From: Clostridiales bacterium | GTDB taxonomy: Bacteria > Bacillota > Clostridia > HGM11327 | Assembly: GCA_015056385.1 (NCBI GenBank) | Contig: SVGI01000007.1 | Span: 1 to 43,073, forward strand | Direction of reading: 5' to 3' | Length of the DNA: 43,073 bases | Shown: in pieces, positions 15,171-36,076 of the stretch | How positions within the stretch are numbered: the first letter of the stretch is position 1 | How the letters are laid out: each line of letters opens with the position of its first letter | The notes under the pieces: generated by a model | What the model saw: only the letters and a program-made list of their open reading frames with translations | The model's database searches: none | Told to the model about the DNA's origin: nothing | Program-made: the position numbers and the translations under genes

Positions 15171-15243
15171 CTATTTACCTGCCAATTTCGGTTTATCGAT
15201 TTATTTATTTTATTTATTCTATCATATAGCTATAATTACAGAT

Positions 15244-15283
15244 AGTAAAAGACCCGGCAGTGTGCTCTGTCGGGACTTTTACT
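15244..15283 (-). terminator. Terminator after the Spo0A-like gene
   Basis: AGTAAAAG-A-CCCGGCAG and CTGTCGGG-A-CTTTTACT form a near-perfect stem with a 6-base loop. The T-run needed for termination lies inside the 3' arm (CTTTTACT). It follows the minus-strand gene ending at 15300 and shields the phosphatidyltransferase gene from read-through. Confidence 0.7.
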
Positions 15284-15299
15284 GTTTCTATACGTTATG

Positions 15300-16064
15300 T
15301 TATTTCCCTTTTGATTTTTCCTTTATTTTTGCAGAAATCATTGCTTCAGATATGCGGTATATAAACTGTAGGTTAGATGGCTTGCCCTTTTCCTCGCTTA
15401 CTGTAAATCCAAACATCTCCTCAAGCTTGTCCAGATTACCCTCTGTCCAGGTTTTTTCAATAGCGGTTCTGATTGAGCGCTCCACAGCCGCAGGTGTTGT
15501 TGCGTACCTTGACGATATGGTGGTGTAAAGCTCAATGGCAGATTTCTGTGTATTGCTTGCAGATACAATTCTAACAGCCTCGGCAATATACGCCGTACCC
15601 TTGTGATTGCTTACAAACCCCATAGAAACAAGAACCTCTGTAATATCATGGAGGGGCTTTGTAAGCAAAAGCCTGTCTTCAGAATCGTTATTGGGAGAAA
15701 ATTTATTAACAGAGGAAAGTACGTTTATAAACTCACCGATTTTGAAGGGCTTCTGGAAGAAATAATCCGCACCCTGTGAAGAAAGAGAGTCCATAAATGA
15801 AGAATCGCTGATGGGTATAAGCACAACGGTAATGATTTTATCCGATATATCCTTAAAGGCCTTTATTATTTCAACAGTTTTTGTGTAATCCGTTGAATGG
15901 TCTATTACGGCTATGTCCGGTATAAAAAACGAGCAAACCTCACCTATTTCTGCAACAGAATTTATCCTTGCAGAAATAGAAATATCACTTTTGTTAAAGG
16001 ATATAAAGTTTGATATCGTGTTGAAAACATTGTCGTTTTGTATTACAAAAAATACGTCGGTCAT
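15300..16064 (-). CDS. Spo0A-like response regulator with a degenerate receiver domain
   Basis: Residues about 137-250 match the Spo0A DNA-binding domain closely: ITEVLVSMGFVSNHKGTAYI, AEAVRIV, TTPAAVERSIRTAIEKTW, TEGNLD, MFGFTVSEEKGKPSN. That domain binds 0A boxes. The first 120 residues are receiver-like, ending in GADYFFQKPFKIGEF with the conserved Lys105, and Asp55 in AVIDHS is the likely phosphoacceptor. The usual N-terminal acidic pair reads QND, with one acid left, and the switch Thr/Ser is replaced by Ile83. Control by ordinary phosphorelay is therefore doubtful. It may be a divergent Spo0A or a second, phosphorylation-independent paralogue; spoIVB, the usual spo0A neighbour, is absent. 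It is the second gene after the phosphatase, with an 18-base gap and AGGA before the ATG. Confidence 0.82.
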   Translation of the reverse strand: MTDVFFVIQNDNVFNTISNFISFNKSDISISARINSVAEIGEVCSFFIPDIAVIDHSTDYTKTVEIIKAFKDISDKIITVVLIPISDSSFMDSLSSQGADYFFQKPFKIGEFINVLSSVNKFSPNNDSEDRLLLTKPLHDITEVLVSMGFVSNHKGTAYIAEAVRIVSASNTQKSAIELYTTISSRYATTPAAVERSIRTAIEKTWTEGNLDKLEEMFGFTVSEEKGKPSNLQFIYRISEAMISAKIKEKSKGK

Positions 16065-16082: not shown

Positions 16083-16883
16083 TTATCTTATAATATCCGA
16101 TATATCGGCTTTTCTTAATCCTATGGTGTTAATAAGGGTGTCTACTTCATTAAAACAGCACAAAAGATTTTGCGGAGAATGGGCATCTGCACCGAATAAT
16201 ACGGGGATATCCATATCCCTTACCATACCGAGAAGATGGCGTGGCGGGTATAAAACATCTCTACCTCTGCTCATGGCACCGGTATTTATTTCCAGAAAAA
16301 TACCAAGCCTTTTTACCTCCTTAAGGGCATTGTAAAGTTCGTCTGTAAAAACCTTATCAGACTCATCGTAATATTTGAAGTCTACGTTACGCCTTGATAT
16401 AAGGTCTATATGTGCCGCGATTTGGGGCCTTAACGAATTAAGCATATTACGGTATTTTTCAAAATACGTACGTACAAATTTGTGTGAATCTCCCTTGAAT
16501 TCACTTTCAAAAAGGATATCCACCTCACTCTGGCTTGCATCCACAGTAGCCTTATCAGGGGCAAGGTAATGTACTGCGCCTATTACGTAATCAAATGCGG
16601 ATAAATCGTATCCGCAGGCAGAGGGTGCGTACAACTCATCGAAATAATCAAGCTCCAGCCCCATACGGATATTAAGGGAGCTGTATTCATTTTTAAGCTG
16701 TGAAATTGCGCAAATATACCCATCCAATTTACTCATAGGCATATTCCAGGATGAATCAAAGGGTACAGGGGCATGGTCTGAAAAGCCCAGGGTACTCATA
16801 CCGTTGGATATGGCGTATTTAACATATTCAACAGGCGCTGCAATACCGTCAGAAAAGGCTGTATGAGTATGAAAATTGTACAT
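16083..16883 (-). CDS. hisJ: Histidinol-phosphatase, HisJ/HisK (PHP) family
   Basis: PHP-domain metallophosphatase; the family removes phosphate from histidinol phosphate in histidine synthesis. Metal-binding motifs are seen in order: FHTHTAFSDG at residues 4-13, GFSDHAPVPFD, GLELDYF, VIGAVHYL, AAHIDLI, EINTGAMSRG and FGADAHSP. The ATG at 16881-16883 is chosen because AAAGGA lies six bases upstream and the promoter -10 at 16917-16922 rules out a longer start. Length 266 is normal. No other his genes are present, and it is cotranscribed with a Spo0A-like regulator. Its real substrate could therefore be another phosphate ester. Confidence 0.88.
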   Translation of the reverse strand: MYNFHTHTAFSDGIAAPVEYVKYAISNGMSTLGFSDHAPVPFDSSWNMPMSKLDGYICAISQLKNEYSSLNIRMGLELDYFDELYAPSACGYDLSAFDYVIGAVHYLAPDKATVDASQSEVDILFESEFKGDSHKFVRTYFEKYRNMLNSLRPQIAAHIDLISRRNVDFKYYDESDKVFTDELYNALKEVKRLGIFLEINTGAMSRGRDVLYPPRHLLGMVRDMDIPVLFGADAHSPQNLLCCFNEVDTLINTIGLRKADISDIIR

Positions 16884-16916
16884 ATTTATTCCTTTGAAAG
16901 CGCATATATTTAGACA

Positions 16917-16945
16917 ATTATAGTTCAAAGATATGAAAAAGGCAA
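16917..16945 (-). promoter_or_regulatory. Promoter of the hisJ/Spo0A-like operon
   Basis: On the minus strand, TTGCCT lies 17 bases before TATAAT (16917-16922). The -35 is a weak match and the -10 perfect. The predicted start near 16910 gives a leader of about 27 bases. Confidence 0.6.
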
Positions 16946-22444: not shown

Positions 22445-22452
22445 TTTTTCAT

Positions 22453-22505
22453 TCGTCAAAAACGTATAAATTTCATCAAAGGGAAGTAGTACAGCCCCGG
22501 TGAAT
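22453..22505 (+). promoter_or_regulatory. Possible sigma-H promoter and 0A-like box of the spoIIA operon
   Basis: AAAGGGAAG (22478-22486) and GGTGAAT (22499-22505), 12 bases apart, resemble the sigma-H pattern RnAGGAwWW-n11-12-RnnGAAT, with two mismatches in the -35. TCGTCAAA (22453-22460) is one change from the 0A-box form TTGTCRAA. In B. subtilis this operon is driven by sigma-H and Spo0A, which makes the matches more credible. Confidence 0.45.
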
Positions 22506-22550
22506 ATATTATTCACGACAAAGAAAAATGCCTGTAAGGGGGTAGAGATT

Positions 22551-22910
22551 TTGAAGGTAACAGGAAAAATAAAGGACGATATACTTGTTCTTTATCTCGA
22601 GGGAGAATTGGATCATCACAGCGCAGATGCAACCAGAGAAGCAATAGACAATATAATGTCAAGACGAAAGCTGAAAAAAGTAATTTTTGATTTAAGTGAG
22701 CTTACGTTTATGGATAGTTCCGGTATAAGTGTTTTTTACGGACGTTACAAAAATATAATGTCCTTAAACGGCAGAGCTATACTCGTTGGGATAAACGACA
22801 AGGTAAGAAGATTTGCCGAGGTGGCAGGGTTATACAGAATATTTGAGGTATATCAAGGTGAGGAGGAGGCCATACGTGCAATGGAAAAAGGAGTACCCGT
22901 ATCCCGTTAA
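22551..22910 (+). CDS. spoIIAA: SpoIIAA, anti-anti-sigma-F factor
   Basis: STAS-domain protein that, when unphosphorylated, binds SpoIIAB and frees sigma-F in the forespore. The phosphorylated serine lies in the conserved FMDSSGISVFYGR block (about residue 57). The remaining length and pattern (LYLEGELDHHSA, IFDLSEL, INDKVRRFAEVAGL) match the family. The start is set at TTG 22551, giving 119 residues. AAGGGGGT (22536-22543) lies seven bases upstream, and the longer GTG start at 22500 falls inside the proposed -10. First gene of the spoIIA operon. The kinase SpoIIAB and sigma-F follow. Confidence 0.95.
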   Translation: MKVTGKIKDDILVLYLEGELDHHSADATREAIDNIMSRRKLKKVIFDLSELTFMDSSGISVFYGRYKNIMSLNGRAILVGINDKVRRFAEVAGLYRIFEVYQGEEEAIRAMEKGVPVSR

Positions 22911-22936
22911 GGAGTACGCTGTAAAGAGGTATAAAT

Positions 22937-22975
22937 TTGAAAGGTATGGTTTTGAATAATGAAAAAAATAAATGA
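22937..22975 (+). CDS. Possible 12-codon leader ORF overlapping the spoIIAB start
   Basis: A TTG at 22937 has a strong ribosome binding site, AAAGAGGT (22923-22930), six bases upstream. It opens a 12-codon frame ending at TGA 22973-22975. The spoIIAB ATG (22959) lies within it in another frame and has no well-spaced site of its own. The leader ORF may feed ribosomes to spoIIAB by coupling. It is too short to claim a peptide function. Confidence 0.35.
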
Positions 22976-23390
22976 AATGAAGCTTGAGTTTATAAGCAAT
23001 TCTGTAAATGAATCCTTTGCGAGAATGGCTGTTGCGGCATTTGCTTCGCAGCTTGATCCTACCGTAGAGGAAATAACAGATATAAAAACAGCAGTTTCCG
23101 AGGCGGTTACCAATGCTATTATCCACGGGTACGACGGGGTAAAGGGTATCGTAACCGTAATATGCGAGCTGTACATAGACAAGATAGTAATCGAGGTTAT
23201 AGATACAGGGCGCGGTATTGCCGATATAGATACGGCAAGGCAGCCTCTTTATACCACAAAGCCAAACGACGGCAGAAGCGGAATGGGCTTTACCGTAATG
23301 GAAACGTTTATGTCCGGCTGTGAGGTATATTCCTTGGTAGGGAGCGGAACAAGGGTAAGAATGACAAAAAATATTACAGGTGGGTGCTGA
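22959..23390 (+). CDS. spoIIAB: SpoIIAB, anti-sigma-F factor and SpoIIAA kinase
   Basis: GHKL-fold serine kinase that holds sigma-F inactive and phosphorylates SpoIIAA. The ATP-binding boxes are clear: N box [11 protein letters not shown] near residue 48, G1 box DTGRGI near 85 and G2 box GRSGMGF near 107. The 143-residue length matches the family. An in-frame stop just upstream fixes the start at ATG 22959. The nearest Shine-Dalgarno-like site, AAAGG, is about 14 bases away, so translation may depend on coupling. Its 3' end overlaps the region of the sigF start. Confidence 0.96.
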
Positions 23391-23394
23391 TACT

Positions 23395-24153
23395 GTGTTT
23401 GGTGTTGATGGGTCGCTTGAGTTGTTCGACCATGAACGTACACTTGCACTTATATCAAAGGCACAAAGGGGAGATGACGAGGCATTAAATACCCTTGTTA
23501 CCTGTAATATGCCTCTTGTCAAATCTATAGTCCGCCGTTTTCTTAACAGAGGCTACGAATACGATGATTTGGAGCAGCTTGGCGCAATAGGCCTTGTAAA
23601 GGCGATAAAAAACTACGATTTCAATTATGACGTACGCTTTTCCACATACGCCGTTCCCCTTATTACAGGGGAAATAAAGCGGTTTTTGCGTGATGACGGA
23701 GCAATCAAAATATCCAGATCAATAAAGGAAAACGTTAAAAAAATAAACGAGATACGCTGTGAGCTGGAAAGAAAAAACGAAAAGGAGCCTACGCTTTCCG
23801 AAATATCCTCTATAAGCGGATTAAGCGTTGAGGATATTATACTTGCAATGGAATCTCAATCCTGCCTTGTTTCCTTAAGCGCCCCTGCCTACGAGGATTC
23901 CTCATCAAGCGTTACTGTTCTTGATACCGTAACTCAGATGAGCGATAGGGATGAGGTGGGTGAAATATCATTAAGGATATTGCTTAAGGAAATGCTTTCC
24001 ACCCTTGATACAGTAGAAAGACAGATAATCGTTTTAAGGTATTTTAAGGATATGACTCAAAGCGATGTTGCCCAAAGACTGTCAATCTCTCAGGTACAGG
24101 TATCCAGAATGGAAAAAAGGATACTTACCAAGATGAGGGAAATGGCAGGGTAA
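23395..24153 (+). CDS. sigF: RNA polymerase sigma-F factor (SpoIIAC)
   Basis: Forespore-specific sigma factor, held inactive by SpoIIAB until septation. Region 2 is seen as YEYDDLEQLGAIGLVKAI and FSTYAVPLITGEIKRFLRDD, region 3 in SRSIKENVKKI and LSEISSISGLSVEDI, and region 4 as IIVLRYFKDMTQSDVAQRL followed by SISQVQVSRMEKRIL. The start is placed at GTG 23395 (252 residues; family about 255) because AGGTGGG lies ten bases before it. GTG 23380, inside the end of spoIIAB, is the alternative. No clear terminator follows before the rpsT promoter. Confidence 0.95.
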   Translation: MFGVDGSLELFDHERTLALISKAQRGDDEALNTLVTCNMPLVKSIVRRFLNRGYEYDDLEQLGAIGLVKAIKNYDFNYDVRFSTYAVPLITGEIKRFLRDDGAIKISRSIKENVKKINEIRCELERKNEKEPTLSEISSISGLSVEDIILAMESQSCLVSLSAPAYEDSSSSVTVLDTVTQMSDRDEVGEISLRILLKEMLSTLDTVERQIIVLRYFKDMTQSDVAQRLSISQVQVSRMEKRILTKMREMAG

Positions 24154-34175: not shown

Positions 34176-34709
34176 ATGGATATAAAAGGTACAACAATAT
34201 TAGCCGTAAGGAAAAACGGTGTAGGTGCAATCGGCGGAGACGGCCAGGTAACAATGGGCCAAAGCGTTGTAATGAAGCACGGCGCACGCAAGGTCAGAAG
34301 AATATTCAACGATAAGGTCCTTGTAGGCTTTGCAGGCTCTGTTGCCGATGCATTTGCTCTTACTGAAAAATTTGAAGCAAAGCTTCAGCAGTTTTCCGGA
34401 AATTTACAGAGGGCCGCTGTTGAATTGGCCCGTGAATGGCGTATGGATAAGGCTATGAGGCAGCTTGAGGCTATGCTTATAGCTCTTGACGATAATAATC
34501 TTCTTATAATATCGGGTACAGGCGAGGTTATAGAGCCTGACGATAATATTGCGGCAATAGGCTCCGGCGGTAACTATGCTATGGCGGCTGCAAGAGCATT
34601 ACTTAACAACACAGATCTTTCCGCAGAGGAAATTGTCAGAAAATCGTTGGAGATAGCAGCATCTATCTGCGTATTTACAAACGATAATATTTACGTTGAA
34701 AGGATATGA
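34176..34709 (+). CDS. hslV: ATP-dependent protease peptidase subunit HslV (ClpQ)
   Basis: Threonine peptidase that forms a two-ring dodecamer with the HslU ATPase. The N-terminus [11 protein letters not shown] indicates a short five-residue propeptide before the catalytic threonine. The sequence continues with [39 protein letters not shown] and [16 protein letters not shown]. Length 177 is typical. GAAAGGA precedes the ATG. The stop overlaps the hslU ATG (ATGA), so the two subunits are translationally coupled. Confidence 0.97.
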
Positions 34710-36076
34710 TCCAGGTGATTGATTCAATACAGGCAACGCCCAGGCAAATAGTTGAAGCGTTGGACAAATATATAATAGGACAGGATGACGCAAAGCGTGC
34801 CGTAGCCGTTGCTTTGAGAAACAGATACAGGCGAAGTATGCTTTCCGAGGATATGCGTGAGGAGGTTACTCCAAAAAATATTATAATGATGGGCCCTACC
34901 GGCGTAGGTAAAACCGAAATTGCCCGCCGTCTTTCAAAGTTTGTAAATGCGCCCTTTGTAAAGGTAGAGGCAACAAAATATACAGAGGTAGGCTACGTAG
35001 GCCGCGACGTTGAATCTATGATACGCGACCTTGTTGAAAATGCTATCCGTCTTGTTACAAAACAAAAAATGGAGGCAGTTTCGGATATTGCCCGTACTGC
35101 GGCGGAGGAAAGGGTGCTGGACCTTATACTTCCGAATATAAACAGAAACATCGAAACAGTATCTGCTGACCCTAATGCAACAGGCGCTCTTACTGTTACC
35201 ACCCGTGAAAAGTACAGAAATAAGCTTCGCGAGGGTAAAATAGATTCTCTTCCCATTGAAATAGACGTAGAGGAGCACGGCGGTACACCTATCGGTATGA
35301 TATCCGGTATGGGTGGGGACGAAATGATGATGCAGATTCAGGACGTTCTGGATTCAATGATGCCCAAGAAAACAAAAAAGAAAAAAACAACCGTAGGAAA
35401 CGCCTTCAAGCTTTTCGAGCAGGAGGAGGCCCAGAAGCTTATAGACAAGGATGATATAAATGCTCTTGCTCTTGAGGCTGCTCAGTATAAGGGTATTATT
35501 TTCATTGATGAAATAGATAAAATTGCAGGCAGAGGCGGCTACTCAAACGGTCCCGACGTTTCAAGAGAGGGTGTTCAGAGGGACATACTTCCCATTGTAG
35601 AGGGTACTACGGTAAATACCAAATACGGCCCTGTAAAAACAGACCATATATTGTTTATTGCCGCAGGTGCATTCCATATGTCTAAAATAAGCGACCTTAT
35701 CCCGGAGCTTCAGGGCAGGTTTCCCATAAGGGTAGAGCTTAAAAGCCTTACAGAGGAGGATTTTGTAAAGATTCTCACAGCCCCGGAAAATGCTTTGATA
35801 AAGCAGCAGAAGGCGCTCTTAAGCGTGGAGGGAATAGACCTTGTTTTTACTGATGACGGCATAAGGGAAATTGCAAAAATATCAGTTCAGCTTAATGAAA
35901 CTCTTGAGGATATCGGCGCAAGGCGTCTGCATACGGTTATGGAATCTATTGTTGAGGATGTTTCCTTTAACTGTGAGGAGTATACAGGAAAAACAGTAGT
36001 AGCAGATAGCGAATACGTAAGAAAAATACTTGCAAGTGAATACAAGAGTAATAATCTCGAAAAATATATACTTTAA
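34706..36076 (+). CDS. hslU: ATP-dependent protease ATPase subunit HslU (ClpY)
   Basis: AAA+ unfoldase that feeds substrates to HslV. Seen are [20 protein letters not shown] at the N-terminus, Walker [10 protein letters not shown] near residue 60, the pore loop GYVGRDVE, a long inserted I domain with a lysine-rich turn (KKTKKKKT), Walker [13 protein letters not shown], and the sensor region [14 protein letters not shown]. The C-terminus EKYIL is the conserved tail that inserts into HslV. Length 456 is typical. It starts by a 4-base overlap with hslV. B. subtilis has codY next; here a membrane protein follows. Confidence 0.97.

Follow-up and report, generated by a model that had tools for sequence, protein, structure and literature searches.

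A Spo0A-family protein with a predicted pseudo-receiver in a Clostridiales genome

In all spore formers, sporulation is taken to be gated by phosphorylation of Spo0A, and the Spo0A_C domain is taken as the feature that sets Spo0A apart from other regulators (PMC6136694). We asked whether a Spo0A_C domain that sits on a degenerate receiver could still be governed by phosphorylation and, if not, what else might set its activity. The protein in question is encoded in a 43,073-nucleotide stretch of Clostridiales DNA (the window), on contig C14 of a 1.45-Mb genome that is 84.6% complete (G000). The window is chromosomal, with addAB, dnaG, rpoD, topA, hslVU, and spoIIA-sigF present; we also record the hslV-hslU protease genes, at 34176-36076, in this clostridial genome. 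The features discussed below are:

15300..16064, minus strand: Spo0A-family paralogue gene, 254 aa, stop codon included, with an ATG start and a full-length open frame
15702..16064, minus strand: receiver-fold domain (putative pseudo-receiver), residues 1-121, from AlphaFold and Foldseek; Pfam Response_reg below cut-off
15309..15647, minus strand: Spo0A_C DNA-binding output domain, residues 140-252, from Pfam PF08769 and Foldseek
16038..16043, minus strand: Ile8-Gln9, the probable acidic-pair positions (Spo0A D10-D11), from profile alignments, Pfam offset, and AlphaFold
15900..15902, minus strand: Asp55 (Spo0A Asp56), kept, from alignment
15816..15818, minus strand: Ile83, where Spo0A has the switch residue Thr86 (Thr/Ser), from alignment
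15750..15752, minus strand: Lys105 (Spo0A Lys108), kept, from alignment
15441..15494, minus strand: recognition helix, residues 191-208, around AAVERSIRTAIE, from the AlphaFold model and alignment
16083..16928, minus strand: HisJ-like PHP-domain phosphatase gene, 18 bases upstream of the paralogue gene
15240..15290, no strand given: strong hairpin with A and T runs on either side, immediately past the paralogue stop codon

The C-terminal domain matched Spo0A_C (PF08769) over residues 141-240 at 94.1 bits (E 6.2e-27), above the curated cut-off of 25. Against Pfam Response_reg (PF00072), the protein scored 14.7 bits (E 0.036; cut-off 30.2), so that it is the fold match that supports a receiver, and on the Spo0A equivalog model TIGR02875 it reached 95.4 bits, under the cut-off of 200. 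These shortfalls bear out the earlier note, which had called the receiver degenerate. Using AlphaFold2 with 47 sequences, we obtained a confident model (pLDDT 88.5; mostly 88-95 in the receiver part) that combines a beta-alpha receiver fold with the helical domain of Spo0A, and Foldseek paired it with two Spo0A structures, the receiver 5wq0 (TMt 0.86, rmsd 2.2) and the trans-activation domain 1fc3 (TMt 0.76, 35% identity). Describing the output domain as close to Spo0A, as the note had done, proved generous: the Spo0A_C match of 94 bits stands, but the domain shares 35-42 identities over ~113 columns (~30-37%) and carries two recognition-helix changes. As only 18 bases separate the gene from the HisJ-like phosphatase gene on the same strand, the two are probably co-transcribed, an arrangement that was not conserved in the family relatives. 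The hairpin past the stop codon (folding z -5.6 on the minus strand, -6.2 on the plus strand) is likely a terminator, possibly acting in both directions.

At the five receiver positions that carry catalysis and switching, the window protein reads I-Q-D-I-K where Spo0A has D-D-D-T/S-K, both by MAFFT and by a receiver HMM. Asp55, Ile83, and Lys105 lie where they had been placed before and align with Asp56, Thr86, and Lys108 of Spo0A. The claim that one of two acidic residues was lost (QND) fared less well, as its N10-D11 register is probably two residues off. MAFFT and the HMM both align I8-Q9 with Spo0A D10-D11; the HMM seed probably contained the window protein and is not fully independent, whereas the Pfam offset (residue 17 at profile position 14) is independent and gives the same pair, and the AlphaFold secondary structure, with strand 1 spanning residues 2-7 and helix 1 beginning at residue 11, fits I8-Q9 and not N10-D11. 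Because all four place the pair at I8-Q9, it is most probable that neither acid has survived. The protein would then lack three or more of the five catalytic and switch residues, or two if the N10-D11 register were right. The D+4 Pro and the D+8 Gly are replaced as well, by Asp59 and Thr63 respectively, and an aromatic residue, Phe102, stands at K-3. By the published definition, under which a single loss among the five suffices (Bourret et al. 2025, PMC12632262), we predict that the window protein is a pseudo-receiver protein: AlphaFold and Foldseek give it the receiver fold, the loss at Ile83 is beyond doubt, and that of the acidic pair is very likely. With catalytic and switch residues lost, a working Asp-phosphorylation switch is very unlikely, in agreement with the initial suggestion that such receivers are usually not controlled by phosphorylation; as Asp55 and Lys105 are kept, residual phosphorylation by a kinase or a small phosphodonor would be possible.

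Window-type paralogues were present in all four genomes of the family (G000-G003; assemblies 78-94% complete). G001, G002, and G003 each encode one short Spo0A_C protein of 204-213 aa, in which the N-terminal domain has shrunk to ~90 residues. A Pfam receiver match was absent from the two short paralogues tested, those of G001 and G003, and the model of the G001 protein yielded no significant receiver-like structural match, its N-terminal part being a low-confidence remnant and its significant Foldseek hits going to Spo0A_C alone. Since the receivers of the relatives have eroded further while Spo0A_C stays well above its cut-off in all four paralogues, despite ~30-40% mutual identity, it seems to be the output domain, rather than the receiver, that is maintained by selection. 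The gut relatives would carry more decayed copies of the window-type paralogue. In a tree of about 110 alignment columns with long branches, the window protein grouped with the short paralogues at moderate support (92/82, UFBoot/SH-aLRT; 86 SH-aLRT in another tree), and an AU test did not reject an origin by in-family duplication of the main Spo0A (p 0.25 for a clade of the window protein with the main Spo0A; p 0.052 for one with the short proteins). We found no synteny among the four paralogues, and GTDB contigs contained no close named relative of the window protein, the best match showing 38% identity over the output domain. A phage origin was considered and rejected, as viral contigs and phage records yielded only distant Spo0A_C and the window is chromosomal.

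The recognition helix has changed in the same way in all four paralogues (B. subtilis numbering): R/K211 is replaced by Ala or Ser and H218 by Thr, with Ala and Thr in the window protein, while E213, R214, and R217 are kept. The window protein thus departs from the canonical helix (R/K211, E213, R214, R217, H218), and as these changes are common to the paralogues, ordinary 0A-box binding cannot be assumed. Counts of 0A-like sites were at chance level within the window (9, where 6.9 would be expected) and showed no enrichment genome-wide (10, compared to 11 in the reversed control), and neither a binding site nor a target gene emerged from these scans. One such site, TTTGACGAATGA, with 2 mismatches (22449-22460, minus strand), lies upstream of spoIIAA in the spoIIAA-spoIIAB-sigF operon (22500-24153), 6 kb from the paralogue gene.

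The window gene is not the only Spo0A gene of its genome, so that the situation which the earlier note had named as refuting its reading, a sole and normally phosphorylated Spo0A, does not apply: a second Spo0A_C gene (132 bits) lies on contig C4. A second, canonical spo0A beside spoIVB, which the note had suggested looking for, was found in part only, as the C4 gene is not beside spoIVB and belongs to another lineage, in which receiver residues are also being lost in this family; its own receiver reads D-S-D-S-K, lacking one acid but retaining Asp, Ser, and Lys. The classical spo0A of two other Clostridia, G006 and G044, lies directly 3' of spoIVB (L157, L158), and both genomes encode a second Spo0A at another locus (L053, L054). 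The main Spo0As of G000 (C4), G001, and G002 group with L053, L054, and the G008 copy (support 100/100), and the gene upstream of the C4 Spo0A, weakly DUF7922-like but below cut-off, is common to L053 and L054 (blastp 2e-14 and 1e-13). We take the C4 Spo0A to be the orthologue of the second lineage carried by G006 and G044. All four family genomes contain spoIVB (on contig C11 in G000), and tblastn detected no Spo0A_C gene around it in any of them, the same test being positive in G006 and G044. Hence, in assemblies that are 78-94% complete, the classical spoIVB-linked spo0A appears to have been lost from the family.

The main Spo0As of two relatives have gone further. In G001 (L039:5145-5930) and G002 (L040:1076-1864), Asp56 is replaced by Asn, within the motifs ILNMILP and LINMFLP respectively, and Lys108 by Met or Leu; the recognition helix is canonical in the receiver-defective main Spo0As, including these two. 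A main copy was not seen in G003, the assembly that is 78% complete. Spore genes were kept, namely sigF-spoIIAA-spoIIAB (in the window), spoIVA (G000-G002), spoIVB (all four genomes), and SASP (G001-G003), and each family genome has 4 to 10 HisKA kinase matches, five of them in G000.

In our view, the product of the window gene is probably a lineage-specific paralogue of Spo0A, an atypical response regulator with a pseudo-receiver and an activity independent of Asp phosphorylation. The DNA-binding domain would be its constrained, working part. As isolated Spo0A DNA-binding domains bind their targets without phosphorylation (PMC3485338), the simplest mechanism would be that of a DNA-binding regulator whose activity is set by protein abundance. 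The receiver remnant may contribute constitutive or partner-dependent association, possibly dimerisation; in GlnR and RamR, the Asp that remains is used for dimer formation and not for phosphorylation (PMC12632262). Because two recognition-helix positions are changed in all four paralogues, the protein would regulate either some of the 0A-type sites or other sites altogether, and not act as a simple copy of Spo0A.

Two other readings also dispense with phosphorylation. A Spo0A_C protein acting constitutively on 0A boxes could antagonise or bypass the main Spo0A, as the fold with its conserved E213, R214, and R217, the 0A-like site upstream of spoIIAA, and the proposed influence of phage-carried receiver-less Spo0A homologues on sporulation (PMC10294663) would allow; we regard this as unlikely, given that the shared changes at 211 and 218 and the chance-level occurrence of 0A-like sites both speak against 0A-box binding or antagonism of Spo0A. 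Control by a small molecule or protein that binds the receiver remnant would fit the well-formed receiver fold kept in G000 despite its lost chemistry, but as three family members have almost lost the domain, any input through the receiver is not conserved, and we think such control quite improbable.

There is little to recommend a receiver that is still phosphorylated, with Asp55 modified, Mg held by substitute residues, and Ile83 merely altering the switch. Asp55, Lys105, and the aromatic Phe102 are present, the genome encodes five HisKA kinases, and under an ungapped N10-D11 register Asp11 would remain a metal ligand; against this stand I8-Q9 at the acidic pair, Ile83, the replacement of the D+4 Pro by Asp59, and the further erosion of the receiver in relatives, which together leave this reading very doubtful. 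Finally, we find it highly improbable that the gene is functionless, with a receiver in free decay toward a pseudogene. Its divergence and long branch, the progressive N-terminal loss in relatives, and the lack of a conserved neighbourhood would be expected of a decaying gene, but the frame is open at full length, the fold is confident, and four genomes at ~30-40% identity retain Spo0A_C well over its cut-off together with a conserved helix motif.

Compared to Spo0A of B. subtilis and Clostridia (TIGR02875), the window protein has the same domain order and folds, a Spo0A_C match above cut-off, and the equivalents of Asp56 and Lys108, while it differs in its score (95 of the required 200 bits), the probable loss of the acidic pair, the loss of the switch residue, and the helix changes at 211 and 218. 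The gene also lacks the spoIVB linkage of the classical copies in G006 and G044, and shares its genome with a second Spo0A. The second-lineage proteins (L053, L054) and the main Spo0As of G000-G002 are of the same architecture and family but keep the canonical helix, and the window paralogue groups apart from them, although the AU test allows joining. Like the atypical response regulators GlnR, RamR, ChxR, and HP1043, it joins a residue-deficient receiver fold to a DNA-binding domain; their output domains are different, and the main text of the review that treats them does not mention Spo0A (PMC12632262). In the open-licence literature, we found no description of chromosomal degenerate-receiver Spo0A paralogues. 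The nearest published case is the receiver-less, truncated Spo0A of phages (PMC10294663), in which Spo0A_C is likewise freed from phosphorylation control; the window copy, by contrast, is chromosomal and has a receiver fold, and it is the short paralogues of G001-G003 that come nearer to the phage state.

Carrying several Spo0A_C genes is not unusual: at least two were present in 18 of the 52 sampled Clostridia genomes with a Spo0A_C match. Many of these lack a working receiver, some having a receiver with an incomplete residue set and others having no receiver at all. Several individual proteins deserve mention. G001 carries a third, different Spo0A paralogue (contig C23, L035:5687-6445; receiver G-K-D-S-T), with a histidine kinase gene on the other strand ~300 bases away. 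L133, L146, and L149 are tandem proteins with two Spo0A_C output domains per polypeptide and no receiver. In G052 and G018, the main Spo0A (L028:1386-2183, L030:1477-2274) reads D-H-E-S-K, with Glu at the phosphosite, His where the second acid would be, and a canonical helix. G008 and G046 are genomes of 0.8-0.9 Mb, 100% complete, in which a HisKA match is absent; the main Spo0A of G008 (L056:4590-5351) has Glu at the phosphosite (D-K-E-T-K), possibly a natural phosphomimetic in a genome without HisKA kinases. Macrococcus sp. DPC7161, of a genus that is not known to form spores, encodes a Spo0A-like protein (L139:5740-6420) whose receiver, E-D-D-S-K, is nearly complete.

For the family as a whole, we tentatively suggest that the spoIVB-linked spo0A was lost, that the second lineage took over its role while losing its phosphosite in two genomes, and that the pseudo-receiver paralogue works beside it. 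At least some family members would then enter sporulation independently of Spo0A phosphorylation, while keeping the downstream spore genes. This family pattern, with no classical spo0A and a phosphosite lost from the main copy, is of more interest than the single paralogue and is directly testable. It calls for caution when annotating 'Spo0A' in metagenomes, and such genomes provide naturally occurring cases in which control of spore formation independent of phosphorylation could be tested. Overall, the family's control of spore formation may be unusual.
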